Below, piece by piece: positions 7,832 to 59,473 of a DNA stretch of 64,000 bases. The stretch is from contig JADGAZ010000014.1 of NCBI GenBank assembly GCA_015231755.1, positions 1 through 64,000 of the forward strand, given 5' to 3'. The stretch comes from Magnetococcales bacterium. Its GTDB lineage: Bacteria; Pseudomonadota; Magnetococcia; Magnetococcales; Magnetaquicoccaceae. Within the stretch, counting starts at the first letter, position 1; every line of letters starts with the position of its first letter. A model generated the notes under the pieces. It worked only from the letters and a program-made list of their open reading frames with translations. It searched no databases and was not told where the DNA came from. The position numbers and the translations under genes were made by a program.

Positions 7832-7896
7832 CCCAGGCCTTTTGAAGGGTTTGCGACCAGCGCATGGCATGGCGCAAACCTTTCAAAAGGCCTGGG
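7832..7896. repeat. Long inverted repeat between convergent genes
   Basis: Arms 7832-7855 and 7873-7896 are complementary over 24 bp with a single G:T-type mismatch, separated by a 17-nt loop. It lies between the triple-receiver gene (+) and the transglutaminase gene (-). A T-rich stretch precedes the left arm on the plus strand and no T-run follows either arm, so it is not a standard intrinsic terminator. It may still end transcription from both sides, or be a copy of a dispersed palindromic repeat. Confidence 0.85.
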
Positions 7897-7947
7897 GTCT
7901 CCCCGCCTCGACGATCTTTCCCGATCAACCTGTTGAATTGTTGGATT

Positions 7948-8850
7948 TTATCTGAAGTCGGATTCCGGGAACGGCGTGTCGCGCTGCACATCCACGCTGA
8001 CATCCAGGATCGGATTGCGCCCTCCTCCCAGCACCACTCCTTTTAACGGTGGCACATCGCTGTAATCCCGTCCCCAGGCCAAGGTGATGTGGCGGTCCGA
8101 AGGGAGCAGATCGTTGGTGGGATCCAGATCGATCCAACCCAGATAGGGACAAAGGGTGGCAAACCAGGCATGGGAGGCGTCCGCCCCCACCAGACGTGGC
8201 CGACCAATGGGTGGAAGGGTCTCCAGATAACCGCTGACATAGCGGGCCGCCAATCCCATGGAACGCAACGCGCCGATGGCCACATGGGCGAAGTCCTGAC
8301 AGACCCCGTGTCGATGTGCGAGAATTTCGCTCAAGGGTGTGGCGATGGTGGTGGCCCGGGGCCGATAGGCGAAATCCACATGGATGCGATGCATCAGGTC
8401 GATCACCCCATCGATGAGGGGGCGGCGCGGGGGGAAGGAAGGCGCGGCGTATCGGGCCAACTCCGAGGTGCGGCGCACCAGGGGGGAATCCAGCAGAAAC
8501 TGGCGTTCCAATAGATACCGGGGATCCTGGGAGGCGTTCAACAGGTCGCGGGCCTCTTCCCAGGGGGGGGAGACACCGGGACACAGGGGCAATGGCGGCG
8601 TTACCGCCACCTGACTGACGCATTCGATGGTGAGGGTGCGATGGGACTCCAGCACCTCGAAATAGCGCACCCGGTTGCCATGGATATCGAGTCTGGGAAA
8701 GACGATGGCCGGCGTGGGTTCAATCGTCCACTCGAAACTCAGCGGATTCTGGGACGGCGTGTGACGGGGTTGCAACCAGGCGAGATTGTGGCTCAAAGAG
8801 ACCGGTTCGCTGAACTGGTAACAGGTAATGTGGCGAACGCGATAGGCCAT
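7948..8850 (-). CDS. Transglutaminase-like cysteine peptidase family protein
   Basis: The 300-residue protein has a bacterial transglutaminase N-terminal region (about 1-150) and a transglutaminase-like core. The catalytic triad appears intact: C184 in HGVCQDF, H227 in ASHAWF and D243 in DLDPTND. There is no signal peptide, so it should act in the cytoplasm. Such proteins can be peptidases, amidases or transamidases. It is the third gene of a minus-strand arm and starts 3 nt after the stop of the ATP-grasp/alpha-E fusion. Published analyses of amidoligase-type ATP-grasp neighbourhoods list exactly these partners, so a role in making or trimming a peptide-like tag is plausible but unproven. 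Confidence 0.9.
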   Translation of the reverse strand: MAYRVRHITCYQFSEPVSLSHNLAWLQPRHTPSQNPLSFEWTIEPTPAIVFPRLDIHGNRVRYFEVLESHRTLTIECVSQVAVTPPLPLCPGVSPPWEEARDLLNASQDPRYLLERQFLLDSPLVRRTSELARYAAPSFPPRRPLIDGVIDLMHRIHVDFAYRPRATTIATPLSEILAHRHGVCQDFAHVAIGALRSMGLAARYVSGYLETLPPIGRPRLVGADASHAWFATLCPYLGWIDLDPTNDLLPSDRHITLAWGRDYSDVPPLKGVVLGGGRNPILDVSVDVQRDTPFPESDFR

Positions 8851-11397: not shown

Positions 11398-11406
11398 GAT
11401 CCGCTA

Positions 11407-14400: not shown

Positions 14401-14688
14401 TTCGACAAAAAAATCGAAGGGATTGATCACCGACATTTCCGCGATCACTTCCACCGAGATTTCCAGCGCGGTACATTTCTCCGGAAAGACCACCCGCGCT
14501 AGATAATTGCCGAATGGATCCTGCTGCCAGTTGATGAAATGATTCTCGGGCAGGATCTTCATGCCGTAGGCGCGAATCGGGGTGCGACAATGCACCGCCG
14601 GGCGCAACCGGAAGATCTGGGGAGAGAGGGTGATGGCCCGGTCATACTGATACCGGGTACGGTGATGAATGGCGACGCGAATGGTCAT
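11407..14688 (-). CDS. Large transglutaminase plus DUF2126 protein
   Basis: The 1093-residue protein begins with a transglutaminase module (about residues 1-300) and continues into a long DUF2126 region to the end. The triad is visible: C180 in TGSCRDS, H229 in DLHAWAEV and D245 in GLDPTSG. DUF2126 is of unknown mechanism and regularly accompanies ATP-grasp and alpha-E genes. The frame is open to a GTG at 14757. I chose the ATG at 14688 because the product then starts MTIRVAIHHRTRYQY, the usual beginning of the domain, although the ribosome binding site is weak. It is first in the minus-strand arm and divergent from the second ATP-grasp gene. There is no signal peptide or membrane segment. 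Confidence 0.92.
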   Translation of the reverse strand: MTIRVAIHHRTRYQYDRAITLSPQIFRLRPAVHCRTPIRAYGMKILPENHFINWQQDPFGNYLARVVFPEKCTALEISVEVIAEMSVINPFDFFVEEYAERFPFQYEPLLAQELGPYLEAAKAGPLLKKWLAQVPREAPNTVLFLVALNQRLWQEVGYTIRMEPGVQSCEQTLTRKTGSCRDSAWLLVEILRHLGLAARFVSGYLVQLTPDQPALDGPSGPKQDFTDLHAWAEVYLPGAGWVGLDPTSGLFAGEGHIPLACTPQPASAAPVSGLMEACETSFEYDNSVTRILEHPRVTKPYSDASWNAIQELGQKVDQRLLEDDVRLTMGGEPTFIAMEQTEEPEWNFAADGPHKQRLATELTQRLFERFAPGGVLQHGQGKWYPGEPLPRWRFSCFWRTDGHPVWRDPSLIAWGKGDLGHGIIQGEIFLKELARELGLAPEAVIPALEDPFYHLWQEMRAPMDRDVGKVDPKAKPKPSMEQKRLAALLQRGVEKPTGHLLPVMRDEQRWHTGVWPLRRGELFLAPGDSPMGLRLPLDSLPDSWAGEEEFLEERSLFAPIVPLPPHPVGETPILPAGAVEKKLVYEPALVIRSALCVEPRQGTLRVFLPPLGLLEHYLELVAAVERVAARLKLPVLLEGYEPPADNRLSRLLITPDPGVIEVNIHPAASWQELEENTFILYEEARATRLATEKFMLDGRHTGTGGGNHVVLGGATPGDSPMLRRPDLLRSLITCWQHHPGLSYLFSGLFIGPTSQAPRVDEARPESLYELEIAFQQMPPGEVTAPWLVDRLLRHLLVDLTGNTHRSEFCIDKLYSPDGAAGRLGLLELRAFEMPPHARMSLVQMLLLRGLIAQFWREPYQGRLVRWGTELHDRFMLPHHVRRDVLEVTEGLRRAGIPFQDDWIEPFVEFRFPRLGAVTLGDIQLELRTAIEPWHVLGEELTRMGTARFVDSSLERVQAKVTGLTEDRHILTCNGRRVPLRSTGVHGEQVAGVRFRAWQPPSALHPTIGVHTPLTFDLVDTWNGRSLGGCVYHAAHPGGRNHEQFPVNSFEAEARRGTRFQEFGHSPGATRAIPPEEAPGEYPHTLDMRRQSGF

Positions 14689-15068
14689 GTTGAGTCGGTT
14701 GTGGTCAAGGGGTTGCTGAATTTCAGATACACAAACGAACTGTTCTTCAAGATTCACGCCAAAGACGCAGATGAGGCGGCAGGCTCCATCGGGGAGCGGG
14801 CCAACGGATTTGGGTGTTTATTTATTAATCAATCATGCATAAAATGAGCATCACCTGTATACGACTTGCTCAAGAACAGCCAAACCGGAACGGTTCATCG
14901 TCTCCCGATGCCGTGAAGAAACGACAAAAACCGTTCAGATTCCTTGAATCTGTGGGATATGCACCACAAAGAACCGTGACTGGCCCGGAGGTTGCGATAT
15001 TCTTTGATATTCCGTTTTTAGTTCTGTACGGCTGGGAAGTCGCCGGACCCAAGGAGCTTTGTCGAACC
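14689..15068. other. Divergent intergenic region of the ATP-grasp/alpha-E locus
   Basis: These 380 bp separate the two divergent arms and must hold both promoters. The middle (about 14813-14850) is clearly AT-rich compared with the flanking genes. AAGGAG at 15051-15056 serves the ATP-grasp gene. I could not fix -35/-10 pairs with confidence and see no gene in it. Confidence 0.6.
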
Positions 15069-43387: not shown

Positions 43388-45679
43388 ATGAAACTGTCAA
43401 GCCGGATTCGACTGCGAGACAAATTCGTATTGCTGTTGATTTTTCCTGTCTGCGGATTGTTGTGGTTTGGTCTTTGGCAGGTGCAGGACAGACAGGCGTT
43501 GGCAAGGCAGGCCACGGACATGGAACAACTGGTGGGATTGGGCATCCGCTTGAGTGCCCTGGTCCATGAACTGCAAAAGGAACGTGGCCTCTCCTCCGGT
43601 TTCCTGGCCAGCAAGGGGGGCAAATTCCGGGATGAATTGGGCAAACAGCGACAGGAAACCGACGACCGGAAAAAACTTCTCGGCATCTTTCTGAAAGAAT
43701 TTCCGGCACAGGCTTTCGGCTCCGGATTGAAACAGGATCTGCAACGGACCGAAGCGGAACTGGAAAAATTGTCCGACCTGCGTGGACAGGTGGACGGGCT
43801 GACCCTGACCCCTCCCCAGGCCATGAGCTTTTACACGACGCTCAATGGATACACCCTGGATCTGGCAGGACGCTTTCCGACCCTGACCGTCAACAGCGAA
43901 TTGTCCACCCAGGCCTCCGCGTACATCAATTTTCTGTTGACCAAAGAGCGCATCGGTCTGGAACGGGCCATGCTCAATGCCGTTTTCTCCTCGGATCGGT
44001 TCGCGCCGGGGACTTTTGCCCACTTCGCTCAACTGGTGGGGGAGCAGGAGGCCTATCAGCGTGTTTTCGTTGGACTGGCCACCCCTGCCCAACGCGCCCT
44101 GCTGGAAACGAAATCCCAGGATCCCGATGTGGCCGAAGCCATCCGTATGCGACAAATCGCCATGGAAAAGGGGGATCAGGGTGGATTCGGGATCGATTCT
44201 TCCCGCTGGTTCTCCGTCATGACACGGAAAATCGAACGCTACAAAGAGGTCGAAGACAGCTTGTCACAGGAGCTTGAGACCCGCGCCCGCCGTTTGAGTC
44301 AGGAGGCGCGTCGTGTCTTGTGGATGGTTTCCGTTGCCGTGGGAAGCATTCTGTTGGTGGTTGCCTTCTTGTCGGTTGTGATTGTGCGGGCCATCCAGGG
44401 ACAACTGGGCGGGGAGCCGGAAATGGTTCGCAATCTGGTTGAACGGGTGGCCAATGGTGATCTGTCGGAACGGGTGGATCCTCAGGCGCAAGGCATTCTG
44501 GGTTCCATCGGCACCATGGTGAACAATCTGCGCGGCACCATTGCCACCATTGCCAATATTGGAGATCAGGTGGTTCAGGAAAGCGAAACCATCAGCGACA
44601 GTTCGGCTCAGGTTTCCCAGGGGTCCAGCCGTCAGGCGGCGGCCATTGAACAGACATCTGCCGCCATGGAACAGATGACCGCGGCGGTGCGCAACAACGC
44701 CGACAATGCGACCCGCACCGAAACCATGGCGGTGCAGGCCGCCACCGGTGCCCGACGCAGTGGCGCGGTGGTGGTGCAAGCGGTGGAAGCGATGCGAAAC
44801 ATCGCCTCGCGCATCACCATTATTGAAGAGATCGCCCGTCAGACCAATCTGCTGGCTCTGAACGCCGCCATCGAGGCGGCCCGGGCGGGAGAGCATGGAA
44901 AAGGCTTTGCCGTAGTGGCCGCCGAAGTGCGCAAACTCGCCGAACGCAGCCAGCAGGCCGCCGGTGAGATCAACCAGATCTCCTCTTCCAGCATGGCCGT
45001 GGCGGAAGAGGCGTCATTGTTGCTGGAACGACTGGCACCGGATATCGAGGAGACCGCCGCTTTGGTCCGTGCGATTGCCCATGCCTCCCAGGAACAAAGC
45101 CAAGGGATCTCCCAGGTCAATCACGCCTTGCAGGAATTGAACGATGTCATCCAGGACAACGCCGGAGCGGCTGAACGATTCGCCCAGGGAGCCGATAGCC
45201 TGGCCGAACAGGCAAACAAGCTGCAAGGGGTGTTTACCTTCTTCCGTCTGGATGACGCCTCGGGAAAAGCCGATGAGATCTTCCCCTGGAGCGATCGGAT
45301 GCGCATCAATGTGCGTGAAGTCGATGCCCAACATCAACGCCTGGTGGAAATGGTGAATCAGGTCTATCGGTTGATCAAAAACGGGGCGTTCGAGGAGGCG
45401 TTGACCAAAGTTTTGCCGGAACTGCTGGAATATACCAAGTTCCATTTTGGTTTCGAGGAACAATTGTTTGCCCAATACGGCTATCCTCAGGCGGCGGATC
45501 ACGCCCGTCTTCACGTCAAGTTGGTCGAACAGGCTTTGGCGTTCGTGCCTCGCGTGCAGGGGGGGGATCGGGCTGTGGCTTTTGAATTGTTGGGATTCCT
45601 GAAACAATGGTTGACCAAACACATCTTGAAGTCCGACAAACATTATGCCGGCTTCCTGAACAAAAAGGGTGTCTATTGA
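43388..45679 (+). CDS. Chemoreceptor with NIT-type sensor and C-terminal hemerythrin
   Basis: The 763-residue protein has a membrane segment (about 14-32) and a periplasmic helical nitrate/nitrite-sensing (NIT-like) domain (about 50-295, containing [16 protein letters not shown] and [12 protein letters not shown]). A second membrane segment (about 311-334), a HAMP domain and a methyl-accepting signalling domain with the hairpin tip [22 protein letters not shown] follow. The final 130 residues form a bacteriohemerythrin domain with the di-iron ligand pattern H in DAQHQRL, H and E in FHFGFEE, two H in DHARLH, and H with D in KHILKSD. Hemerythrin binds O2 at a di-iron site, so the receptor may read both a periplasmic ligand and cytoplasmic O2 and signal to CheA. 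Confidence 0.95.
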
Positions 45680-45811: not shown

Positions 45812-47830
45812 TCACGATGACAACAAACTCCGTTTTGCGGCAACATGGCTGATCACCTCCAGCAACCGGTTGCGACGCACGGGTTTGCTGACGTGGAGAT
45901 CACAACCGACCTCCTGTGCCTTCTCGACCATACACCGGGTCGCGTGACCGGTCAGCGCGACAATGATGGTGGGTTTCCATCCCATTTCTTGTTCCCAGGC
46001 GCGAATACTCCGAGTGGCCTCCAGACCGTCCATGACCGGCATCTGGATATCCATCAAAACCAGATCGCATCCACCTTTCTTGAATTTTTCGAGACATTCC
46101 AGACCATTGGTGGCAAGGCTCAGCCGATGTTCCGTTTGGTCGAGAAACGCATCGATCAGGATAAGGTTTTCCTGCGCGTCGTCGGCGCATAAAATGGAAA
46201 GCGACCTCTCAGGCTGGACGATCTCCGTCGTCACATCCCAATAAGACGGTTTTGGAATCGACGGCTCTTCCATTTCCGGGAGGGGAATGAAAACAGAAAA
46301 GGAACTGCCCTTGCCGAGAATGCTTTCCACCTGGATGCGCCCACCCATTTTCTCGCTCAAATGACGACAGATGCTCAATCCAAGACCCGTGCCCCCGAAT
46401 CGTCGGGTGGTGCTGGCATCGGACTGGACAAAAGGTTGAAAAATATCGTCCAGCTTGTCCTCCGGGATACCCACACCGGTATCCGTCACGGTCAACCTGG
46501 TCCATTCTCCTTCTCCTCTCGAAATCTCCAGGCGGACTGCCCCTTTTTCCGTGAATTTAAGCGCATTGCCCAGCAGGTTCAGCAGGATTTGTCTCAGACG
46601 GTCCGGGTCTCCGCGCACGAAACGGGGGATGGTTTCGTCCATGGTCACACTCCAGTCAATCCCTTTGGTCTTGGCGCGCAAACCGAGGATTTCCAGGGTT
46701 CCTTGCACCAGATCCGGAAAGTCGAACGTCGCGTTTTCAAGGTGCAACTGGCCTGCTTCGATTTTGGAGATGTCCAGAATATCATTGATGAGCGCAAGCA
46801 GTGAATCCCCGGCCCGTTTCAACAATTGGACATGGTGCATCGTCTCCGCATCGAGTGTGGAGGTGCCAAGCAAATCGGTCACACCGATGATGGTGTTCAT
46901 GGGCGTGCGAATTTCATGACTCATGGCGGCCAGAAAGGCACTTTTGGCGTGATTGGCCGAATCGGCTTTCTGTACCGCCTGTTCCAATTCCAACAGCAAC
47001 CGTCTGCGTTCGGTCACATCCCGCACGGTCAGGCAGTAACCCGCCAGTTGGTGACGCTGATCCAACACACCGGAAACCCGACCCTCCAGAAAATGGATGC
47101 CATCCCTTTTTTCGACCTGCATTTCAAACCGATGTTCCGCCTGGGCCCGCACATTCTGAATGGCTTGCATCCAATGCTGCTCATCCACCGCAAACCGTTT
47201 ATGAAACTCACGCACATCATGTCCCAGCGTCTCTTCCTGCGTGATGCCCAGCAGTGTGGCGGCCATGGGATTGAAGTATTGCACGATCAAGTCGAGATCG
47301 GCGGTGATGATGGCCAGATCCGTGGCAGAGCGCAACACATTGTCCATATGGAGACTTTTTTCGACCAGCGCGGCTTCCGCCGCACGGCGACGCCTTTCGG
47401 ATTGCGCCAGTTCCAGGGCGTAATGGAGAGAGCGGGATAAAACCTCCGGGGAAAGATGCTCCTTGACCAGATAGTCCGCCGCACCGAATTTCATCAAGGT
47501 GACGGCGATCTCCTCGTCACCGCATCCGGTCAGAAAAACGATAGGGGTTTCGATCCCGGACCCGCGCATTTCCTGCAACAACTCCAATCCTGTGTTGGCA
47601 CCCAACCGGTAGTCGAAGAAACAGAGATCGAACGATTGACTGCGCAAACATTCCAGTGCGATCGAATAGGTGGGGGCACACGTCAGATGATGGGGACGGT
47701 CGGTCATCCCCCGCATCAGGTGACGACGAAAAACCGTGGCGTCGGTCTCCTCGTCTTCGACAAGCAGCAAGCGGATCGTCACGGCGGGCATGTTGTTGTC
47801 TTTCGATAAAGTGTGTTGAGAGGCCAGCAT
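45812..47830 (-). CDS. Hybrid histidine kinase: REC-PAS-HisKA-HATPase-REC
   Basis: The 672-residue soluble protein has an N-terminal receiver (D73 acceptor, K123), a PAS domain (about 160-275) and a HisKA dimerisation domain with H305 in MSHEIRTP. A HATPase domain with N422 and the GTGLGL lid (about 400-520) and a C-terminal receiver with D594 and KP follow. The front receiver suggests it is itself controlled by a kinase. It begins 6 nt after the GGDEF gene and is last in the eight-gene minus-strand run. No ribosome binding site is clear, and an ATG at 47791 is an alternative start. Confidence 0.92.
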   Translation of the reverse strand: MLASQHTLSKDNNMPAVTIRLLLVEDEETDATVFRRHLMRGMTDRPHHLTCAPTYSIALECLRSQSFDLCFFDYRLGANTGLELLQEMRGSGIETPIVFLTGCGDEEIAVTLMKFGAADYLVKEHLSPEVLSRSLHYALELAQSERRRRAAEAALVEKSLHMDNVLRSATDLAIITADLDLIVQYFNPMAATLLGITQEETLGHDVREFHKRFAVDEQHWMQAIQNVRAQAEHRFEMQVEKRDGIHFLEGRVSGVLDQRHQLAGYCLTVRDVTERRRLLLELEQAVQKADSANHAKSAFLAAMSHEIRTPMNTIIGVTDLLGTSTLDAETMHHVQLLKRAGDSLLALINDILDISKIEAGQLHLENATFDFPDLVQGTLEILGLRAKTKGIDWSVTMDETIPRFVRGDPDRLRQILLNLLGNALKFTEKGAVRLEISRGEGEWTRLTVTDTGVGIPEDKLDDIFQPFVQSDASTTRRFGGTGLGLSICRHLSEKMGGRIQVESILGKGSSFSVFIPLPEMEEPSIPKPSYWDVTTEIVQPERSLSILCADDAQENLILIDAFLDQTEHRLSLATNGLECLEKFKKGGCDLVLMDIQMPVMDGLEATRSIRAWEQEMGWKPTIIVALTGHATRCMVEKAQEVGCDLHVSKPVRRNRLLEVISHVAAKRSLLSS

Positions 47831-47835
47831 GATTT

Positions 47836-49668
47836 TCAGTTCTCGACGGCTGACTGCATCAGGGCAGGATTGAAAAAGTGAAAAGTCGCTCGTCCCGCAT
47901 TCTTGGAACGATACATCGCCTCATCCGCACATTTCAGGAGCGATTCCACCGTGTTGCCGTCTTCCGGGAACACGGCGATGCCGATACTGCCGGAAATATG
48001 CGCCTCCCGACCATGCGGGAAAAACGGACGCGTCAATTGTTCAAGGATTTTGGTCGCGATCGGTTGCGCCAATTCCGGATGGGCCACATCGTGAAGAATG
48101 ACGGTAAACTCGTCTCCTCCCAGACGTGCCACGGTGTCGGAACGACGCACGCACAATGCGATGCGCCGGGCCGCCTCCCGCAGCAGCGCATCGCCCGCAT
48201 CGTGGCCCAGGGTGTCGTTGACCTCTTTGAAACGGTCCAGATCCACAAACATCAACACCATGTGGGCTTCGTTCCGTCCTGCCAGAGCCACGGCCTGACT
48301 CAAACGATCATCAAACAGACGACGGTTGGGAAGCCCGGTCAGTGTGTCGTATTCGGCTTGAGTGCGCAATCTCTCCTCCAGCTCTTTGCGCAAGGTGATG
48401 TCCTGCTGCACCGAGACGAAGCGGGTCACACCACCAAAACGATCACGAACCGGTGAGATGGTGGTTTCCTGAATATACCGGGAGCCATCCTTGCGGCGAT
48501 CCACCATTTCGCCGCGCCAGACATGGCCATCCAGAATGGTGTTCCAAAGATCCTGGTAGAATGCATTGTCATGATGCCCTGATTTGAGAATACGCGGGGT
48601 GGCGTCCCGAATGTTCTCCCGGGTGTAACCGGTGATGCGGGTAAACGCAGGATTGGCCCAGAGAAAAATTCCCTGGGAATCGGTGATGAAAATGGCATTG
48701 GCGGCGGTTTCCAGGGCGGTGGCCTGGAGGCGCATCAATTCTTCGATTTTTTCCCGTTGCAAAGCGGCGCCCAGAGTACTGGCGGCGGTGCGCAGGGCAT
48801 CCAGTTCCATGGATGACCACTCCCGGTCCGCGCTGCGTTCATCGAACCGCAACACGCCCCACCAGGCGCCATCGACGAATACCGGAATCAGCACCGAAGC
48901 GTGGATTCCCATGGACTGCAACCATACCGCTTCCGGTTCCGGAAATTCCGTGGCGCGACAAAAGAAAGGTTTGCCATTGGCCAGTATTCCCGTCCAGTTC
49001 TGATTCTCGGCCTCTCCGTAATGGAAATCCGGATGATCGGAATGGCGGACGGCGGACCGCAACGCCTCCTCGACCCACTCGAACAGGGGTTGGGCACCGA
49101 GTCTTCCCTGCGGGGACATCCTGTTTTGCAGCAAACCGACCCGGCATGCGACCGATGCGCGTCCAAAGGCGGTCAGCAGGCGACTCATGCCGTCGCGCCA
49201 ATCCGAAGACTTGAGCAAGGTTTCCGTGGACAGGGTCAAGGCGTTGAGAATGGCGTCCCGGTGACGCAGTGCGCGTCGGTCCTGAATGCGCTGCACCACG
49301 AACCGGAGGACATGTTCGAGTCCTTCCGCCGACAGGGTGCTTTTGGTCATGTAATCGAGCACTCCGGCACGCAACGACTGGACTGCCACCTCCTCGTCCC
49401 CATGACCGGTCAGCAGAATAAAGGCGCAATCCCGACGCATCTCGTCGGAAAGTCCGCGCACCAGGTCGAGTCCGGTGCCGACATCCAACAAAAAGTCCGT
49501 AAACGCCACGTCCGGTGCGAAGGAGGACAGTGCTTCCGTGGCTTCCTGGGCGGTCGAACACTCCCGACAGGTGATATGCCATCCGGAAAGCTGTTTCAAC
49601 AGTCGGACGAGACGCCGACTGTCCGCCGGATTGTCATCGACCACCAGAATCTTGATGGAATGGCTCAT
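47836..49668 (-). CDS. Response regulator diguanylate cyclase: REC-GAF-PAS-GGDEF
   Basis: The 610-residue protein has a receiver (D58, K109), a GAF-like region (about 140-305), a PAS domain (about 312-430) and a GGDEF domain (about 438-605). GGDEF at 517-521 is intact, and the product-inhibition site RxxD (R508-D511) sits five residues before it, so it should make c-di-GMP under feedback control. AAGGAG is 8 nt before the ATG. It follows the small response regulator by 19 nt. It is the most likely output of the upstream kinases. Confidence 0.94.
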   Translation of the reverse strand: MSHSIKILVVDDNPADSRRLVRLLKQLSGWHITCRECSTAQEATEALSSFAPDVAFTDFLLDVGTGLDLVRGLSDEMRRDCAFILLTGHGDEEVAVQSLRAGVLDYMTKSTLSAEGLEHVLRFVVQRIQDRRALRHRDAILNALTLSTETLLKSSDWRDGMSRLLTAFGRASVACRVGLLQNRMSPQGRLGAQPLFEWVEEALRSAVRHSDHPDFHYGEAENQNWTGILANGKPFFCRATEFPEPEAVWLQSMGIHASVLIPVFVDGAWWGVLRFDERSADREWSSMELDALRTAASTLGAALQREKIEELMRLQATALETAANAIFITDSQGIFLWANPAFTRITGYTRENIRDATPRILKSGHHDNAFYQDLWNTILDGHVWRGEMVDRRKDGSRYIQETTISPVRDRFGGVTRFVSVQQDITLRKELEERLRTQAEYDTLTGLPNRRLFDDRLSQAVALAGRNEAHMVLMFVDLDRFKEVNDTLGHDAGDALLREAARRIALCVRRSDTVARLGGDEFTVILHDVAHPELAQPIATKILEQLTRPFFPHGREAHISGSIGIAVFPEDGNTVESLLKCADEAMYRSKNAGRATFHFFNPALMQSAVEN

Positions 49669-49687
49669 GGCTCTTGCTCCTTCGCTA

Positions 49688-50149
49688 TCAGTGACCAGAG
49701 GGAATGATCACCAATTCAAACCAGAACTCTTCCAGCTTCTGTATCGTTTCCATGAATCGGCTCGGTTCCACCGGTTTGCTGATGAACGCATTGGCTCCAT
49801 GGCCATAAGAGGCCATCACATCCCGTTCCTGATCGGAGGTGGTCAGAATGACCACCGGCAGAGTGCGCAGACTGGGAGTGGCACGAATCTGCCTCAACAC
49901 CTCCAGTCCATCCATTTTGGGCATGTTGATATCCAGCAACAACAGGTCCGGACGCGGATAAGCCTGAGTGTCCGCATACCGGCCCTGGTTTCTTAGAAAC
50001 TCCAGACAGGCTTCGCCGTCATCGACGATGAAAAGCCGCACCGCCAGCATGGCTTTGGCGAACCCGCGTTGCACGGTGCGTTGGTCCGGTTCGTTGTCTT
50101 CAGCCAACAACACGTTGGCCGGTCTTCCGGTTTTGGTCATAAAATTCAT
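49688..50149 (-). CDS. Single-domain CheY/Rcp1-like response regulator
   Basis: The 153-residue protein is a stand-alone receiver with the acidic pocket AEDN near residue 17, phospho-acceptor D73 in LLDINMPKMDG and K125 in FISKP. The long beta4-alpha4 part (TTSDQERDVMASYGHGAN) and overall form match the Rcp1-like regulators paired with phytochrome-type kinases. Both nearby kinases have the matching ASHDLQEPLR phospho-histidine motif. AGAGGA precedes the ATG at 50149 by about 5 nt. It probably passes phosphate between the kinases and the downstream proteins. Confidence 0.93.
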   Translation of the reverse strand: MNFMTKTGRPANVLLAEDNEPDQRTVQRGFAKAMLAVRLFIVDDGEACLEFLRNQGRYADTQAYPRPDLLLLDINMPKMDGLEVLRQIRATPSLRTLPVVILTTSDQERDVMASYGHGANAFISKPVEPSRFMETIQKLEEFWFELVIIPSGH

Positions 50150-50215
50150 GCCATCCTCTCTCGTCTCTGGTGCCATATCAAGTCATCCTGCCTTGCGGGC
50201 AAGGATCACCACAAA

Positions 50216-51778
50216 TCATCCACGTTGCACAACCGCATCGCATGCGGCCCCGTCGTTTTCATGGGGAAGGAACAGCACAAAAACAGTACCCTGGGCGGGG
50301 TGATCCGCCACCCGGATCTCCCCGCCATGGCGTCTGACCGCCTCCCGGACGATGGCCAGGCCAATGCCGGAGCCCGCATAATCCGCCCGCCGGTTCAACC
50401 GCTTGAAAGGCTGAAAAATCAGCTCCCGGTGACGGGGTTCAATGCCGATTCCCTGGTCGGCGATGCGGATCTCCCAACCGGTCGCCGTTTCCGTGGCGGA
50501 AATGTTCACCTTGGGGGGGGATTCAGGTCGGTAAAACTTGATAGCATTATCCACCAGATGTTGAAAGACATGGGTCAACAGGGTCACATCTCCTCGAATT
50601 CTGGGCAATCCATCCCAGACAACCCGCGCCCCGGCCTCTGCCACGGGTTGTTGCAACCGCCTCATCACTTCGCGCAAACAACTGTCCAGATCCACCAACC
50701 GCCAGGAAAGCTGTGTTCCCCGGGTGTGGGCATAGGCCGTCAGATCCTGAATCAAACGACGCATCCGAATGGCGGACTCCTGAATGAAACGCAGATCCTC
50801 CCGAACCTCCGCGCTGATGTCGTGGCCCAGGTCTCCCGGCAGGGCGGAGGTGTAATTCAGGATGATTCTCAAAGGTTCCTGCAAATCGTGGCTGGCGGCG
50901 AAATTGAAATTCTCCAGTTCCCGGTTGGCCGCCTGAAGTTCTTCCGCATAGCGGCGTGTTTCGAGCATCGCCTGTTCCATCTCCATTGTCCGCTCCCGGA
51001 CTTTTTCCTGAAGACCGGCGTTGGCGCCCAGGAGCAAATCGGTCATTCGGTTGAAAGAGGTGGATAATTGTCCAATTTCATCGTCGCTTTCCACGCAGAC
51101 GACACGTTCGCGTCGTCCCAGGGAGGTTTCGTCGGCGGCCTGGGTCAATGCCTGCAACGGCTTGATGATCTTGCGGCGTTGGTAATCGAGGGTCGCGCCG
51201 ATGAGCAGGGCGGCGAAAATCACCAATACGGCCAACTGAATTACGAACAGGGAACGGGAATGGCGCAAAGATTCCAATGTCCTGCCCGCCAGACGACTGA
51301 CATGCCCCATGATGTCCTCATGCAAGGCGTCCAGCATCTCCCCCTTGGCACGCCATTGCGCATACAAAAGGGTGATATGGGTTTCGTCTCCTGCCTCGAT
51401 CGCCGTGATGAACGCCTGGATAATGGCCTCCTGCCCGCTCCAGGCATCGGCGAACAGAGTCAGAAGACGACGCTCTTGATCGGTATCCAATCGTTCCGCC
51501 AATTTCTGGATGGTTTCTCGGAACTCTCTAAAATGGCTACTGATTTCCTCCAGATGTTTTTTGTCGGGTTTGTGGCGATGCGCGATTAGAATATTTTTTA
51601 TATGGCTGTCCAGGGTATTCAGACGAAAGGTCAGGTTGGTCACCCGGGCAATCCGGTCATTGGCCAGGGACATGTTGGCTTCCAGGTCACGAAAGGCGAT
51701 CAACAGCCAACCCATGACGCCGAAAAACAGTACGGCCAACAATACCACGGGCAGAGTGATCCGCACGCCGAGCTTCAC
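50216..51778 (-). CDS. Membrane sensor histidine kinase with HAMP domain
   Basis: The 520-residue protein has membrane segments at about 8-28 and 177-197 flanking a helical periplasmic domain of about 145 residues. A HAMP domain (about 198-252), a coiled coil, a phytochrome-type HisKA domain with H297 in AASHDLQEPLR and a HATPase domain with SGIGLAIV follow. The start is GTG with AGGA about 11 nt upstream, and no in-frame ATG is near. It lies 58 nt downstream of the solitary binding-protein gene, whose product could contact the periplasmic domain. Confidence 0.93.
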   Translation of the reverse strand: MKLGVRITLPVVLLAVLFFGVMGWLLIAFRDLEANMSLANDRIARVTNLTFRLNTLDSHIKNILIAHRHKPDKKHLEEISSHFREFRETIQKLAERLDTDQERRLLTLFADAWSGQEAIIQAFITAIEAGDETHITLLYAQWRAKGEMLDALHEDIMGHVSRLAGRTLESLRHSRSLFVIQLAVLVIFAALLIGATLDYQRRKIIKPLQALTQAADETSLGRRERVVCVESDDEIGQLSTSFNRMTDLLLGANAGLQEKVRERTMEMEQAMLETRRYAEELQAANRELENFNFAASHDLQEPLRIILNYTSALPGDLGHDISAEVREDLRFIQESAIRMRRLIQDLTAYAHTRGTQLSWRLVDLDSCLREVMRRLQQPVAEAGARVVWDGLPRIRGDVTLLTHVFQHLVDNAIKFYRPESPPKVNISATETATGWEIRIADQGIGIEPRHRELIFQPFKRLNRRADYAGSGIGLAIVREAVRRHGGEIRVADHPAQGTVFVLFLPHENDGAACDAVVQRG

Positions 51779-51836
51779 CGGGGCGTTTCCTCATGAGATT
51801 TGAAGAATAATAACTGCACGACTGCGTTCCTTGAAT

Positions 51837-52829
51837 TCACAAAATGGTGATGTATTCCGGTTTGACGCCTTCCAGGGGGGCGGGAAACAGGAAAGAACGA
51901 AAGTCGGGAACGGGACCGGGCAATCCACCCGCTTCCACGAACCAGGTCGCCTCCTGGCGCAAGATGGTCAACAGGATATTGTCCAACGTGAGAATGGGGG
52001 TGAAATCCCCTCGGATTTTGCGCATTTCCTCATCGTTGATGTTCAATCGTCTGGCGATCGCGGCGTAGGCCTCATCGGTTCTGCCGACCAGGAACGCTTC
52101 CGCCCGCAGCAAGGCGCGCAGCAGACGAGTCAGCGCTTCCTGTTTGGCGACGAGCGCCTCCCGGCGTCCGACGAGCAACGAAATCTCGGTGTAGACATCG
52201 GAGTGATACAAGGTGGCGTTGTCTTCTCCGATGGCCTGAACCGCCCGGTGGGTAAAGGGCGCCCAGGTGGCCACGGCGTCCACCGCTCCCGATTGCAAGG
52301 AGGCCACCATGCGATCCGGCGGAGTATCCACCAGCGTCACTTGAGACGTGGCGATGCCCTGACTGTTCAGGGAAGAGCGGAGAAAAAAAATACCGCTCGT
52401 ATTGAAGGTTACACCGATGCGTTTGCCGATCAGGTCAACCAGGGCGTCGATTTTCCGATCCTTGCGCGCCACCAGCGCCGTGTTGCGGGAGGATTGATGC
52501 AGGGTGGAAACCATGGCAATCGGTTCGCCCTTGAGGATGTTGAGGACTGCCACCGTTTCGTAGACCGTCGCAATATCCGCTTCGCCCTTCAGGGTTGCCG
52601 TCAGGGCATCCCGACCGACGGAAAAGTCCTTGAACGTCACCTCCAACCCTTCCTTGGCGAAGAATCCCTCGGCCTCAGCCAGAAAAAGCAGGCCAACCGT
52701 CGGCAGTTCCACAGAAGCGATGGTCAGTTTTTCCAGCTTGTCGCGGGAAAAAGCAAACAGGACAAAACCGGCAGGGATGAGCAGCAATCCGATCAGCAGC
52801 CATGAAATGCCGACCCGATTGTGCTTCAT
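51837..52829 (-). CDS. Membrane-anchored NitT/TauT-type substrate-binding protein
   Basis: The 330-residue protein has an N-terminal membrane anchor or uncleaved signal (WLLIGLLLIPAGFVLFAF). An NMT1/SsuA-like binding fold follows, containing TIASVELPTVGLLFLAEAEGFF, GEADIATVYETVAV and GAVDAVATWAPF. Such proteins bind nitrate, sulfonates, taurine or pyrimidine precursors for ABC importers, but no permease or ATPase gene is near. GGAGG is 7 nt before the ATG, which overlaps the upstream kinase stop as ATGA. I infer that it presents a ligand to the HAMP kinase rather than to a transporter. The ligand is unknown. Confidence 0.9.
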   Translation of the reverse strand: MKHNRVGISWLLIGLLLIPAGFVLFAFSRDKLEKLTIASVELPTVGLLFLAEAEGFFAKEGLEVTFKDFSVGRDALTATLKGEADIATVYETVAVLNILKGEPIAMVSTLHQSSRNTALVARKDRKIDALVDLIGKRIGVTFNTSGIFFLRSSLNSQGIATSQVTLVDTPPDRMVASLQSGAVDAVATWAPFTHRAVQAIGEDNATLYHSDVYTEISLLVGRREALVAKQEALTRLLRALLRAEAFLVGRTDEAYAAIARRLNINDEEMRKIRGDFTPILTLDNILLTILRQEATWFVEAGGLPGPVPDFRSFLFPAPLEGVKPEYITIL

Positions 52830-55441
52830 GGAACCGCCTCCCGATCCGGTGGGTTTTGGTTTTGTCCGATCCAGGCAGGCAGGGTCAGGGTGAACAGGCT
52901 GCCGTGTCCGGGAGTGGACTCGACCTGGATCACGCCACCGTGCCGTTCGACGATCTTTCTGACAATGGCCAATCCCAAACCGGTGCCCGGGTACTCTTTT
53001 TTGCTGTGCAGCCTCTTGAAGGGCTGGAAAATCTGTTCTAAGTATTTTCCCTCCATGCCGATCCCGTTGTCGCGCACCCGGATCACCCAGAGTGCTCCGT
53101 TCGCTTCCGCCTCCACCCGCAGGATGGGATCCACACCCGGGCGACGAAACTTGATGCCGTTGCCGATCAGATTCTGAAAAACGCTGATCAAGGATGTGGC
53201 CTCTCCCCGCACCGTGGGCAGATCTTCCCAGGTGACCGAGGCGTGGCTCTCGACCATGCTGGTTTGCAGATTCTCCTGCACGGCTGCCAGACAATCGTTG
53301 AGCGCAACGGGGCGATGTCTGACTTCCAGCCGCCCGGAACGGGAATAGGCCAACAGATCCCATACCAGGGTCTGCATGCGTTTCGCCGCATCGGTGATAA
53401 AACGCAAATCCTCCTGAGCCGATTCGTTGAGAGTCGCTTCGCCCACATCCTCCCGCAAAAATTCCGCGTAGCTGTTCATGGTGCGCAGCGGTTCCTGAAG
53501 ATCATGACTGGCCACATAAACGAACTCTTTTAACTCCTGGTTGACCGCTTCGAGTTCGGCGGTGCGTTGTTGAACCCGCTGCTCCAGTTCGGCGTTGAGG
53601 AGGCGAATCTCCTCTTCTGCGTGTTTGCGTTCCGTGATGTCTTGCACCGTGCCACGCAACATGAGAATCCGACCATCGGCATCGTACAGAGACTCACCCC
53701 GGGTGGTGATCCAACGATGGGGTCCACCGTCTCCTGGAATCACCTCGGCGTCACACACGTAGGGCTTGCCTGTTGCCATGCTTTGCTCGATGGCCGCGGC
53801 CATGGACGTCCAGCTTTCCGGGGTGAAATAACTCCGAACCTCCGGATAACTGGCGGGTGGCAAAGCGGGATCCCGTCCATAAAGACGGTAGATTTCCTCC
53901 GACCAGGTATGCGTGTCGGTGCGCAGATCCCATTTCCAGTCGCCCAATCCGGCCAGACGCCGCGCCTCCCGCAGATTTTCTCCACTCTCCCGCAAGGCCG
54001 CCTCGGCCTCTTTGCGCGCCTGAATCTCCTCGATGACGGCGATGAAATAATCCGGAGTGGTATCGGCCTTCCAGACCAGCGAGACGGTCAGATTGATCCA
54101 CACCACGCTGCCATCCCTGCGGAAATACCGTTTTTCCATGGCATAGTTCTCGATCTGGCGGGCCAGCATGCGCTGCACATAATCCAGATCGGTATCCAGA
54201 TCCTCCGGATGGGTGATTTCCTGAAAGGTCAGGTTCAGCAATGCGTCATGGTCGTAACCCACGATTTGGCACAGCTTGCGATTGACCCGCAACCAGCGCC
54301 CCTCGGGAGATACCAACGCGATACCCACGGCGGCCTGTTCAAAAGTGGCCTCGAAGCGTATTTCGCTTTCTTGCAGCAAGGTATTGGTGGCCTGACGCAA
54401 AGCGGCCTCGGTCCATTTGATACGCTGGAGCGTCCGGGCGTTTTCGATCACCAGAGTGCAGATGCCCAGCAGGGAACGGGCGGTATCCAGATAACGCTCC
54501 CGGAAATGGGGAAACGCCAGATGATCGATCGCGATGGTCCCCACCGTGTGTCCCGCCCGATCCAGGCGCAGCAGAAATCCCTCACCCGAGCGGGTCCAGG
54601 CCCACTCCCGATGCAACTGCCGAATCTGCTCCTGCAACGCCGGCGGGATCCGGTCCATGGATTGCCAGGCCCCATCCACCCAACCCGCGAAATGAAATTC
54701 GGTGGGAGCGAACAGCATGCGGAACATCTCTTCGATGGCGGCAATGGCTTCCGGTTCGTCCTTGAGCAAAACCAGACGGCCCAAGAAATCCATGGCCGCC
54801 GAAAGATCGGCCATATCCCGGGTCTGACGGAGTTCCTTTTGTCTGGCGCGTTGTCGTTCCGTTTCCCAACGCAACCCGTTGACCGCCCGTTGCAACAGCA
54901 GGCGTGTGTAGTCCAGGCCCACGGCCAGACGCCGCACCGGAAGCCTGACCGCTGCGCCAAACTCCCGCAACCTGTCGTCGGCGTCCGGCAGAATAGCGGT
55001 ATCCAGCAACAACAGTTCCCGGGCGAAATCGTGAAAAAACTCGCCGGCCTGATCGCTTTGGAATCCCATGGAGGCCAGATGATCCGGCCAGGTGGCCAGC
55101 CAAGTGGGGGTGATCAGATAGGCTCCCCGGCTGATGGCCTCAGCCACCAGGGTCTTGCCCGCCACCAGATGGAAACATTCCGCCTGACGATCGATCCGGG
55201 TCATGGGCCAGTGGTCCGGAGGCGCATCCAGACCGGTGAGGCAGGCCCGCCCCAGAATCACCACCCCGGAGGTGCCCGGCAGCAGCAGGGGTTCCAACTC
55301 CTCCCAACGCATGGCCGGACGCCCGCATCGTACCGGATAGGCCATCACCTGGACATCGCTCCAGCCTTCCTCTTGCGCCGCGGCAAGCAGATCCGGATGG
55401 AAGTTGTGACAGCACAACACGCAAATCAAGGTATCACTCAT
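52826..55441 (-). CDS. Soluble PAS histidine kinase with DUF1638-like N-terminal domain
   Basis: The 871-residue protein has no membrane segment. Residues 1-190 resemble DUF1638, a cysteine-bearing domain that elsewhere occurs beside corrinoid methyltransferase genes. Supporting stretches are LICVLCCHNFHPDLL, ECFHLVAGKTL, AYLITPTWLATWPDHLASMGF and FFHDFARELLLLDTAI. A GAF-like region (about 210-340), two PAS domains (about 362-475 and 490-605), a coiled coil, a phytochrome-type HisKA domain with H646 in ASHDLQEPLR and a HATPase with GTGLGLAIV follow. It starts 3 nt after the UroD-like gene and is coupled by ATGA to the binding-protein gene. I infer that the N-terminus senses the corrinoid/UroD pair or its metabolite. 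The DUF1638 assignment is by pattern and is moderately sure. Confidence 0.87.
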   Translation of the reverse strand: MSDTLICVLCCHNFHPDLLAAAQEEGWSDVQVMAYPVRCGRPAMRWEELEPLLLPGTSGVVILGRACLTGLDAPPDHWPMTRIDRQAECFHLVAGKTLVAEAISRGAYLITPTWLATWPDHLASMGFQSDQAGEFFHDFARELLLLDTAILPDADDRLREFGAAVRLPVRRLAVGLDYTRLLLQRAVNGLRWETERQRARQKELRQTRDMADLSAAMDFLGRLVLLKDEPEAIAAIEEMFRMLFAPTEFHFAGWVDGAWQSMDRIPPALQEQIRQLHREWAWTRSGEGFLLRLDRAGHTVGTIAIDHLAFPHFRERYLDTARSLLGICTLVIENARTLQRIKWTEAALRQATNTLLQESEIRFEATFEQAAVGIALVSPEGRWLRVNRKLCQIVGYDHDALLNLTFQEITHPEDLDTDLDYVQRMLARQIENYAMEKRYFRRDGSVVWINLTVSLVWKADTTPDYFIAVIEEIQARKEAEAALRESGENLREARRLAGLGDWKWDLRTDTHTWSEEIYRLYGRDPALPPASYPEVRSYFTPESWTSMAAAIEQSMATGKPYVCDAEVIPGDGGPHRWITTRGESLYDADGRILMLRGTVQDITERKHAEEEIRLLNAELEQRVQQRTAELEAVNQELKEFVYVASHDLQEPLRTMNSYAEFLREDVGEATLNESAQEDLRFITDAAKRMQTLVWDLLAYSRSGRLEVRHRPVALNDCLAAVQENLQTSMVESHASVTWEDLPTVRGEATSLISVFQNLIGNGIKFRRPGVDPILRVEAEANGALWVIRVRDNGIGMEGKYLEQIFQPFKRLHSKKEYPGTGLGLAIVRKIVERHGGVIQVESTPGHGSLFTLTLPAWIGQNQNPPDREAVP

Positions 55442-55444
55442 GCC

Positions 55445-56485
55445 TCACGCATCCACCCATTCCAGAGGATACCGGCCCCAGTGGCGGGTGGCCTCGCCGA
55501 TGGCCAGCAACACGTCGTCGGGTGTCTGGAAGGGGATTTCGCCATGGTTGTCGGACAGCAGGAATCCTCCCCCCGGTCCAGCCACCCGGATCACCTCTTT
55601 CACTTCCCGTTCGGCCTCCTCCGCGCTCCAGCGACGCATGGCGATACCGTTCAAATTCCCCAGCAGGGTGATTTTTCCGTGTGCCGCAATTTTCCAGGCG
55701 GAGATGTCTTCCAGGGTGCTGATGCCCACGACAGCGGAACCGGTGGCCGCAATCTCGTCAACAATCGTCAAGCCCCGTCCTGAGGCCAGATGCGTGGCGG
55801 TGGGACCCTGGATGCGGGCCAGGGTGCGACAGGCAATGGGATAACCGGTTTGCCGATATAGCTCACGGGGAATGTTGGTCGTGGAGGAGATCGGGTCGAA
55901 ATAACAGATGGTCGTGGCCCCGGCGGCCAATTGGGCGTTGGCCCAATCCACGCAAAAGGCCTCGTTGACCGCCATCAACCGGGCGAAACGCGCCGGGTGT
56001 TCGTAGATCAATTCAATGTAACGGTCGAATCCCATCTGCATCACCGGCAGGGAAAACGGGGAGACGGCCACACCAATGATGGGAATTTCCTCTTTGGCCT
56101 GCCGTTTCAGTCCCTGAATGGCCTCCAACACCCGGAACAGACAAGGCGTGCTGGCCACCCGGGGCGGTTCCAGGGTATCGATGTCGCTGAAGTCTCGAAT
56201 CACCGGAGCGCCGGAATTGGGCGGACCATCCTCCACGAACAGGGTCGAACCGCCAAAGGCTTCGATTTCCAGCGAAGCGTAAAAAAACGGAAAAAAGCAA
56301 TCCCCCCCATATTTGCGCCGCAGGCGCATCTGTCCTTCGATCACATGATCCGCACGGGAAAAATAGTCCTGGATGGTCAGTCCGAGTTCCTTGGCGCCAT
56401 GCATGGTGGTCAGCAGGATCAGGGGCACCCGGTCCGGTTCCCGATGGGAAAGAGTGGTCAAGACCCGTTGCATGGCGGTCATCAT
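55445..56485 (-). CDS. MtaA/UroD-fold methyltransferase-like protein with altered zinc site
   Basis: The 346-residue protein has the TIM-barrel pattern of the MtaA/CmuA branch of uroporphyrinogen decarboxylase-like proteins, with LSHREPDRVPL near the start and LLGNLNG near 274-280. Active MtaA-type enzymes bind zinc through HxC and a later Cys to activate a thiol for methyl transfer. Here the first site is H232-L-A234 and the second lies in SDNHGEIP (around H314), so both cysteines are missing. The decarboxylase motif of HemE is also absent. The ATG overlaps the corrinoid-protein stop as ATGA. It may be a non-catalytic sensor, or use other ligands. Confidence 0.88.
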   Translation of the reverse strand: MMTAMQRVLTTLSHREPDRVPLILLTTMHGAKELGLTIQDYFSRADHVIEGQMRLRRKYGGDCFFPFFYASLEIEAFGGSTLFVEDGPPNSGAPVIRDFSDIDTLEPPRVASTPCLFRVLEAIQGLKRQAKEEIPIIGVAVSPFSLPVMQMGFDRYIELIYEHPARFARLMAVNEAFCVDWANAQLAAGATTICYFDPISSTTNIPRELYRQTGYPIACRTLARIQGPTATHLASGRGLTIVDEIAATGSAVVGISTLEDISAWKIAAHGKITLLGNLNGIAMRRWSAEEAEREVKEVIRVAGPGGGFLLSDNHGEIPFQTPDDVLLAIGEATRHWGRYPLEWVDA

Positions 56486-57141
56486 CGATTTTGCCCTTCC
56501 CATTGGCGCAGAATGCGAATCCCCTCCGCGGCGTTGCGTCCCATGGCGTCCGCTCCCACCTCCCGCCACAGATCCGGATCGAACAAAAACGGCGCCCCAC
56601 CCACCAGAATGCGCACCGCCACCCCTTTGGTCCGCAGGGCGTTCCGAACCTCTCGCACCTTGAGCGCGGAAGGAAGCATCAAAACGGAGATGAGCAGTTC
56701 CTCCACCCGATCGACGATTACCCGTTCCACCAACTCTTCCACGCTCAGGCGTCCGTAATCCAGCAATGGAAAGCCGCTGGCGCGCAGAATGGAATAGACG
56801 ATCCGTTTGCCCAACATGTGATAATCATGCAGCACCACAATAGCCCGCCTGGGTTGTCCTTCAGGCATCTCCGTATGTTCGGCATCAAAAGCCCGACTCA
56901 CCAGATCCTCGCACATGCGACCACTCATGTAGACCTGGGACAAGGCGATGCAACCCGATTCCCAATCACTCCCGATACGTTCCAAGGTGGGCACGATGAG
57001 ACTTTCCACCATGTCGAGGGGGGGATCCATGGCCAAGGCCTGTTGAAACAATGCTTCGGCACGGGAGCGGTCAAAGGATTCAAGGGCATCCCGGAATTGA
57101 TCGAGCAGCGTTTGTGTGTTCACGATCAAAGGTTCGTGCAT
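56482..57141 (-). CDS. Corrinoid (B12)-binding protein
   Basis: The 219-residue protein has the helical cap module (about 8-90) and a Rossmann-type cobalamin-binding domain. The base-off motif DxHxxG is intact at D106-G111 (H108 would coordinate cobalt), with S152-V-L154 and GG181-182 completing the usual set. Such proteins carry methyl groups between methyltransferases, or sense light or B12 status. GGAG lies just before the ATG at 57141, which fixes the start although the frame is open further upstream. It is the first gene of the eight-gene run and coupled to the UroD-like gene. No cobalamin riboswitch is seen upstream. Confidence 0.92.
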   Translation of the reverse strand: MHEPLIVNTQTLLDQFRDALESFDRSRAEALFQQALAMDPPLDMVESLIVPTLERIGSDWESGCIALSQVYMSGRMCEDLVSRAFDAEHTEMPEGQPRRAIVVLHDYHMLGKRIVYSILRASGFPLLDYGRLSVEELVERVIVDRVEELLISVLMLPSALKVREVRNALRTKGVAVRILVGGAPFLFDPDLWREVGADAMGRNAAEGIRILRQWEGQNR

Positions 57142-58007: not shown

Positions 58008-58226
58008 ATGCGGGGTTTTTTGATCCGTTTGATCCGCGGCTATCAGGCCAGAGGCGGTGGGCGTGCGCTTCTGGTGGATTGCAATTTTACGCCCAGTTGT
58101 TCCGAGTATGCCATTCAGGCACTCGAAAAGTATGGATTGTGGCAAGGGATCCGGTTGGCCGCCAACCGGATCCATCGCTGCCGCGATCCCAACCGTATCC
58201 AACCCCTGGATGATCCCCTGCCATGA
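58008..58226 (+). CDS. yidD: Membrane protein insertion efficiency factor YidD
   Basis: The 72-residue protein has the family signature [18 protein letters not shown] followed by [10 protein letters not shown] and a C-terminal DDPLP. YidD is a small inner-membrane-associated protein that helps YidC insert membrane proteins. It is usually found in the rpmH-rnpA-yidD-yidC cluster, so its place here beside a DUF4177 gene and a protease gene is unusual. Its stop overlaps the next ATG as ATGA. Confidence 0.95.
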
Positions 58227-59473
58227 GCCTCTTTGATTTTGAATTGCCTCAAAAGGATCTGGATCAACTGGAAGACCGGTTGCGCGCCCATCTCCGGGAG
58301 TTGCCCGACGCCCAACGCCGGGAGTACTACAACGCGGTCAATCCACGACTGCGGGATCCGGATACCTTCGTGGTGCTCTGCTGGTCCTTGGGCCTGTTGG
58401 GGTTGCATCATGTTTACCTGGGACGATGGCTCTCCTTTCTCCGGGATCTGATTGCCGGAGCCTGTGGGGTGGGCATCCTCATCTTCTGGATGCTCAATGG
58501 TGAATGGACCTATGCCGCGTTGCTGTTCGCGATCGCGGTCGCCGTGAACTTGTTCGACACCATCTACAGTCTGGCCCTCTCCCAAAGAATCGTCCAGAAA
58601 CACAACATCATGCTTGGACTGACTTGGCTCAACCACAACGGTCATCCCCTGGAGAAAAATCAGCCCCGGGAACTGCTGCCTTCCGCCGAGAATCGGGCCA
58701 TCACCCAGACCGACCGAAAACTGGGGATTTTCCTGGCGGCGGGGACATCCCTGTTTGCCGGGATCATCGGTTTGTTTTATTTTATTTTTATTCCGATCCT
58801 GTCCGAATGGGTCGCCACGGCCCTGCCGGAAAACACCATTCTGGTCTCCACCGAACCAGAAGCCGCCGAAGCCCTCGACCAGATGAAAGCCTTCACGGCC
58901 TCCGAACTGCCCCCCCGCGAGCAGGAACGACTGCGGACCTTGTTTCGCGCCATTCCTCCAAACGAAAAGAAACACGCCAAATATTTTCTTTTTCTGCGCA
59001 AAGGAAACAAACTGGGGGCCAATGCCTTCGCCTTTCCCCGGGGACAGGTGGTATTGACGGACGAACTGGTGAAATTGACCCAAAACGATCAGGAACTGAT
59101 CGCGATCATGGCCCATGAACTGGGCCATTTGCAGTACCGCCACGGGGTGCAAACCTTTGTGCAAAACTCCACCATGCTGGCGATCACGGCCTGGGTGACC
59201 GGCGACATGACCTCGATTGCCGGAGCCGCGGGCATCATGATGAATCTGGCCTTGAATGCCAACTACTCCCGCCAGTTTGAACGGCAGGCGGATGACCACG
59301 CCTTGCACCATCTCCAGAAAAACGGCATTCCCGTGTCCCATTTTGTCAATTTGCTCAAGCGGCTCAAGGAGACCAGGAAATCAGGAGCCTCCGAAACGAA
59401 CTTCCTGGCATCTCACCCTCCCACGGAAGAGCGCATTCAGCACCTTTCCAGTGGCAGTGGCACGCCGATTTAG
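58223..59473 (+). CDS. TM2-domain membrane protein fused to an M48-like zinc protease
   Basis: The 416-residue protein starts with a cytoplasmic segment and a TM2-like pair of membrane helices (about residues 50-115, with [19 protein letters not shown]). A further membrane segment lies near 175-195, and then an M48 peptidase domain. Zinc motif HELGH is at 298-302, and the third ligand is probably the Glu of [10 protein letters not shown]48 proteases of this HtpX/BepA type degrade damaged membrane or outer-membrane proteins. Coupling to yidD by ATGA suggests a link between membrane insertion and quality control. Confidence 0.9.

Follow-up and report, generated by a model that had tools for sequence, protein, structure and literature searches.

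Corrinoid methyltransferase systems such as MtaABC, MtbABC, MttBC and MtgBCD combine a corrinoid protein carrying a DxHxxG motif with a neighbouring protein of the UroD fold (MtaA/MtbA type), and some of these systems also need RamA and DUF1638. In MtaA and MtbA, the UroD fold holds a zinc motif, HxC...C, that serves in thiol activation. The subject of the present analysis is an eight-gene operon in a stretch of 64,000 nucleotides from a Magnetococcales bacterium with a genome of 3.84 Mb (contig JADGAZ010000014.1, positions 1 to 64,000; the whole stretch is called the window). The operon opens with genes for a corrinoid protein, a UroD-fold protein and a sensor kinase that carries an N-terminal DUF1638 domain. 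This trio resembles the systems above in its first two members, but it is found without an adjoining substrate:corrinoid methyltransferase gene, the zinc-thiol motif is lost, and the third component is fused to a histidine kinase (HK) or to GGDEF and lies among signalling genes. The three genes very probably constitute a sensory module.

Other described systems share some of these features. The mec cassette likewise groups a histidine kinase and a receiver with a corrinoid protein and with members of the UroD superfamily, but further methyltransferases and a transporter are present, the kinase senses through PocR and no DUF1638 fusion has been reported (PMC9768040). In Phaeobacter inhibens, a corrinoid protein is linked genetically with a DUF1638 protein and a RamA-like activase, both of which are required for a split B12-dependent methionine synthase; that system is metabolic, however, with a stand-alone DUF1638 protein and no kinase (PMC5764234). 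CarH and the photocobilins use a cobalamin-binding domain in signalling, sometimes together with GGDEF, yet they are single-protein light sensors with EH and GxxH motifs and have no UroD partner. Similarly, MsmS and RdmS of Methanosarcina are PAS/GAF kinases tied to methyl-sulfide methyltransferase genes, but they sense via heme or thiols and regulate genes, and their input is not a corrinoid/UroD pair (PMC6944256). No description of the module was found in the open-access literature, which leaves most subscription papers outside the coverage. The module is made of known families in a new, conserved arrangement.

Strong evidence comes from the distribution of the trio. When 84,980 species genomes were scanned with the UroD subfamily alone as query, 244 loci emerged, the best 80 of which underlie all locus counts given here. 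Since only UroD was used as query, the corrinoid and DUF1638 neighbours represent independent evidence. In all 80 loci, the gene immediately before UroD is the corrinoid gene, and in 63 the one immediately after it encodes DUF1638, the three genes usually overlapping or being spaced by a few tens of nucleotides. The hosts belong to the alpha-, beta- and gammaproteobacteria, SAR324, Desulfobacterota, Chloroflexota, Bacteroidota and Ignavibacteria, Nitrospirota, Riflebacteria and Aminicenantes. The conservation of gene order, on which an earlier note on this DNA had made its proposal depend, is therefore seen in unrelated bacteria, and the trio is a genuine module that can be transferred and that chance falls far short of explaining. 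With regard to the third protein, it is a DUF1638-HK in 33 loci, a DUF1638-HK-REC protein in 14 and a DUF1638-GGDEF fusion in 5, and the rest are mostly contig-cut or short. No metabolic neighbour recurs around the 80 loci, where the trio and signalling proteins are the only widely recurring families.

In the window, the operon runs from position 57141 to 45812, as read from the open reading frames and their translations (aa, amino acids):

56482..57141, minus strand: corrinoid (cobamide-binding) protein, MttC/MtmC-like, 219 aa; Pfam B12-binding_2 and B12-binding
55445..56485, minus strand: UroD-fold protein, 346 aa; Pfam URO-D 5.8e-52; 4-nucleotide overlap with the corrinoid gene
52826..55441, minus strand: DUF1638-GAF-PAS-PAS-HisKA-HATPase sensor kinase, 871 aa; Pfam PAS_3, HisKA and HATPase; 3-nucleotide gap after the UroD gene
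51837..52829, minus strand: orphan NMT1/SsuA-like solute-binding protein, 330 aa; Pfam NMT1 1.8e-25; 4-nucleotide overlap with the DUF1638 kinase gene
50216..51778, minus strand: HAMP histidine kinase, 520 aa; Pfam HAMP, HisKA and HATPase; 58-nucleotide gap after the solute-binding gene
49688..50149, minus strand: stand-alone receiver, 153 aa (alternative start 50176); Pfam Response_reg; 66-nucleotide gap before it
47836..49668, minus strand: REC-GAF-PAS-GGDEF protein, 610 aa, predicted diguanylate cyclase; Pfam GGDEF 1.6e-52; 19-nucleotide gap before it
45812..47830, minus strand: REC-PAS-HisKA-HATPase-REC hybrid kinase, 672 aa (alternative start 47791); domains from Pfam; 5-nucleotide gap before it

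All eight same-strand genes named in the earlier note are present, and Pfam confirms their domains. Its description of tight packing holds for the gaps, which range from 3 to 66 nucleotides, but ATGA overlaps, of 4 nucleotides each, occur at only two of the seven junctions; likewise, the statement that all genes besides the corrinoid/UroD pair serve signalling has to be amended for the fourth, which encodes a solute-binding protein and not a signalling enzyme. The phosphoacceptor motifs are intact in the translations (SHDLQEPLR twice, SHEIRTP, LLDINMP, FTDF, FFDY and LMDI), and the REC-GGDEF protein has an intact RLGGDEF with RRSD, an RxxD site, upstream of it. A 738-aa open reading frame at 53567..55783, antisense to the DUF1638 kinase gene, was taken to be a by-product of its opposite strand and set aside. 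On the plus strand, the operon is flanked by a convergent gene for a chemoreceptor with NIT, MCP-signal and C-terminal hemerythrin domains (43388-45679) and, upstream, by a gene for an M48 peptidase with a weak TM2-like match before it (58223-59473).

The UroD-fold protein is better conserved than any other part of the module. In 41 loci, its pairwise identities have a median of 64%, compared with 51% in the corrinoid protein; the medians of DUF1638 (33%) and of the ATPase domain of the kinase (32%) are lower still. Between loci, the values range from 55 to 92% for UroD and from 18 to 89% for the ATPase domain. Such strong conservation beside a variable kinase suggests one common ligand. The predicted structure, with a predicted local distance difference test (pLDDT) score of 93.4, finds its top match in the methylcobalamin:coenzyme M methyltransferase 4ay7 (Z 41.1, root-mean-square deviation 2.1 over 330 residues). 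In place of the MtaA zinc motif, the subfamily has HxA (H232, A234) and DNHGEIP (D312-P318); the HxA histidine aligns with a histidine of 4ay7, the MtaA cysteine position is taken by alanine in 81 of 81 UroD sequences, and DNHGEIP has no cysteine. This loss of the zinc-thiol motif makes methyl transfer to a thiol unlikely. The protein scores far below the cut-offs of both TIGR01463 (MtaA/CmuA; 87.2 bits against 235.4) and TIGR01464 (HemE; 55.4 against 302.95). Judged from the sequences, the site appears to be tightly constrained for a single ligand and not for the activation of a thiol acceptor.

The corrinoid protein has the B12_2 cap and the Rossmann domain with DxHxxG (D106-Y-H108-M-L-G111) that mark the corrinoid proteins of methyltransferases (MttC/MtmC/MtbC type). 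Among solved structures, the methylamine corrinoid proteins 7xcn and 3ezx are closest to it, and its TIGR02370 score of 76.7 bits lies below the cut-off of that curated subfamily (215.3). Because DxHxxG is invariant in the 17 aligned members, the protein is likely to bind its cobamide in the base-off/His-on form.

The third protein has its DUF1638 domain at about residues 1-180 and a GAF domain at about 204-350. The match to DUF1638 (PF07796) reaches 26.1 bits for the full-length protein (cut-off 27) and, at 28.2 bits, exceeds the cut-off when the N-terminal 350 residues are scanned alone; 53 of the 54 aligned members match this family. An AlphaFold2 model of residues 1-350 (pLDDT 95.1) shows the DUF1638 domain, a long helix and a GAF fold missed by Pfam. 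The GAF part, with Z up to 15.2, took all matches in a structure search with this model, and no solved relatives of the DUF1638-GAF part were found by sequence. Four cysteines of DUF1638 (C11, C39, C67 and C89) are kept at 93-96%, three of them being common to stand-alone DUF1638 proteins. A HisKA phosphoacceptor histidine (SHDLQEPLR) and HATPase identify the remainder as a two-component sensor kinase. Between the corrinoid protein and DUF1638, the correlation of pairwise identities is 0.91, above that of every other pair, although shared ancestry contributes to it. Given the Phaeobacter genetics and a later paper that places the DUF1638 protein with the reductive recharging of cobalamin (PMC12478193), contact between DUF1638 and the corrinoid protein is a natural inference, and its fusion to HK or GGDEF would make DUF1638 a reader. 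That DUF1638 reads the corrinoid protein is accordingly put forward as probable.

The explanation preferred here, to which a probability of roughly 60% is assigned, is that the trio specifies a sensory device whose relay and output come from the rest of the operon. The corrinoid and UroD proteins would form a complex, as a corrinoid protein does with its methyltransferase, recruited for sensing. The UroD subunit would bind one specific small ligand or methyl donor, upon which the cobalt of the bound corrinoid would change its state (methylated, Co(I) or Co(II)), and the DUF1638 domain of the kinase would dock on the corrinoid protein and read that state. The change could then travel through the helix and the GAF domain to the kinase core, or to the GGDEF domain in other species, and phosphate would reach the REC-GGDEF protein by way of the small receiver and the hybrid kinase, and this cyclase would set the level of cyclic di-GMP (c-di-GMP). 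A second input, from the solute-binding protein and the HAMP kinase, would probably join the same relay. As for the actual signal, the chance that it is the methylation or redox state of cobalt is put at slightly less than even. More tentative still is the general principle, not described before, of a dedicated corrinoid protein and a UroD relative without the zinc-thiol motif acting as a chemical sensor in several phyla, in which methyl transfer or a redox change of cobalt would be read by DUF1638 and drive phosphorelays or c-di-GMP synthesis.

The view of the earlier note that the pair works in signalling with the DUF1638 kinase, and not in methyl metabolism, is strongly supported by the conservation of the trio, the DUF1638-GGDEF fusions and the lack of recurring metabolic neighbours. 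The c-di-GMP output that it proposed is plausible in the window and direct in the five loci with GGDEF fusions, but most modules end in histidine kinases.

Several observations weigh against the sensory explanation. In 13 of the 17 loci without a DUF1638 third gene, the pair is followed by a protein with GAF only, and a profile comparison for hidden DUF1638 gave only GAF similarity, so that the link does not depend on DUF1638; in L069 no third gene accompanies the pair, and the other three loci lie at contig edges. Conversely, the relatives G001 (L050) and G002 (L052) carry DUF1638-HK genes, beside hybrid kinases, and no UroD of the subfamily was found in them, which means that a DUF1638-HK can work without this corrinoid/UroD pair. 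On these grounds, the GAF domain may contribute to the reading surface, and other corrinoid proteins may be served by DUF1638 too. Finally, the only RACo gene found in the genome (RamA) adjoins a second corrinoid unit, described below, so Co(I) regeneration in the window unit is not assured.

The GAF-only third genes (L079 10002-10781, L083 10053-10784, L125 9893-10726 and ten more loci) mostly encode a conserved C-terminal GLIPICSHCKKIRDD-GYW that belongs to no Pfam family. Directly behind one of them, L134 has a fusion of pentapeptide repeats with a class-I adenylate cyclase (10975-15039), for which a cyclic AMP output is possible.

Among close relatives, the order of the operon extends beyond the trio. 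The UroD subfamily gives strong scores in 8 of 48 genomes of the class, and the trio is also present in two genomes from a different family of the phylum, G054 and G080. G006 has the DUF1638 kinase, solute-binding protein, HAMP kinase, receiver, REC-GGDEF protein and hybrid kinase in the same order, with a UroD gene of the subfamily near the end of another contig. G046 keeps the order from the DUF1638 kinase through the REC-GGDEF protein, the hybrid kinase excepted; a contig break falls inside the kinase gene, and the corrinoid and UroD genes stand at the end of the adjoining contig. In G039, the corrinoid, UroD and DUF1638-HK genes are accompanied by a further HK, the receiver and the REC-GGDEF protein. 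The genes after the DUF1638 kinase are 48-78% identical between the window and G006/G046: the solute-binding protein (57-61%) and the HAMP kinase are conserved in place in both, and the hybrid kinase (61%) in G006. The receiver (75-78%) and the REC-GGDEF protein are conserved in G006, G039 and G046.

The solute-binding protein, with a hydrophobic segment at its N-terminus and a TIGR01728 score of 113 bits, below the cut-off of 163.5, probably provides a second, periplasmic input together with the HAMP kinase. A general link of the module with orphan solute-binding proteins was rejected, as such genes occur in only 6 of the 80 loci, which was judged to be at or below background; they span three Pfam families (NMT1, phosphonate-bd and DctP). 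Looser parallels of the solute-binding protein, HAMP kinase and receiver part exist in L112 and L125, the latter from Thermodesulfovibrio, where a loose set of solute-binding protein, HK, receiver and hybrid kinase precedes the corrinoid and UroD genes.

The genome holds a second unit of related composition on contig C6 (G000:C6; L058 5711-12307), consisting of RamA, a corrinoid protein, UroD, a stand-alone DUF1638 protein and a PAS-HK-REC hybrid kinase, with overlapping corrinoid-UroD, UroD-DUF1638 and DUF1638-kinase junctions. Its UroD protein has YYC instead of HxC and neither cysteine nor histidine at the second site. The corrinoid-UroD-DUF1638-kinase order of this type is shared by five relatives and by L067, in which a single reading frame covers the corrinoid and UroD parts and DUF1638 and a hybrid kinase come next; this set (3186-8262) stands in tandem with a module of the window type. 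In total, the genome encodes three UroD proteins (HemE, that of the window and that of the second kinase-linked unit) and three B12_2 proteins (a 1260-aa MetH-like frame and one in each kinase-linked unit). No MttB gene was found, MtaB/MtmB-type genes lying outside the search. This inventory bears on the earlier suggestion that methyltransferase genes elsewhere might use the pair as an ordinary metabolic module, for which no sign emerged within that scope.

It also bears on the first alternative, that the pair is a metabolic demethylase or dehalogenase merely regulated by the kinases. The precedent is the mec cassette, which joins the same kinds of proteins for dichloromethane (PMC9768040), and the closeness of the UroD model to methylcobalamin:coenzyme M methyltransferase fits as well. 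The mec cassette, however, has additional methyltransferases (MTII), whereas no further family beside the signalling genes recurs in the 80 loci. With MttB not found in the genome, the zinc-thiol site lost, and a third protein that can be a direct GGDEF fusion, by itself without means of gene regulation, a metabolic role seems unlikely.

Slightly less probable again is that the module senses a tetrapyrrole or the cobamide itself, with UroD binding a haem or B12 precursor and occupancy, not methyl transfer, as the signal. The UroD fold, the alignment of the DNHGEIP histidine with that of the HemE GHG motif and the expected cobamide binding of the corrinoid protein would agree with this. In an alignment with the host's own HemE, on the other hand, the RQAGRY and FSDIL motifs are absent, and the pairing with a corrinoid protein and the DUF1638-RamA link point to corrinoid chemistry. 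Nor did Rfam reveal a cobalamin riboswitch or another RNA element near the operon, the window yielding a single tRNA only.

Light, which the earlier note had listed among the candidate signals, is disfavoured, and a CarH/photocobilin-type sensor driving the kinase is very improbable. The CarH-type signature comprises GxxW, EH, GxxH and GxxxP (PMC11796333). GxxW is present, but EH and GxxH are missing across the 17 aligned corrinoid proteins, with Ser-Gln at the position expected for EH. Light-responsive fusions of a cobalamin domain with GGDEF have been described, among them 8j2y, to which the corrinoid protein shows distant sequence similarity; the best relatives are nevertheless the methylamine corrinoid proteins, and many hosts, to judge from their names, live in dark sediments. 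A chance neighbourhood of eight genes is scarcely credible: although the solute-binding protein, HAMP kinase and receiver part is mainly confined to close relatives apart from its looser parallels, and orphan solute-binding genes are rare near the module, the retention of the trio across phyla, mostly overlapping or closely spaced, contradicts chance where these three genes are concerned, and G006 and G046 both show the longer order as well.

The sensory explanation would have consequences beyond this operon. If the cobalt chemistry is the signal, it would constitute a new sensing principle. If the explanation is true, DUF1638 would gain a signalling role and parts of corrinoid methyltransferases would have been turned into a widespread sensor. 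The strong conservation of UroD, with the one common ligand that it suggests, means that a single biochemical finding could account for the input at 244 or more loci, and what is sensed by many PAS/GAF kinases and diguanylate cyclases in sediment bacteria would become directly testable.

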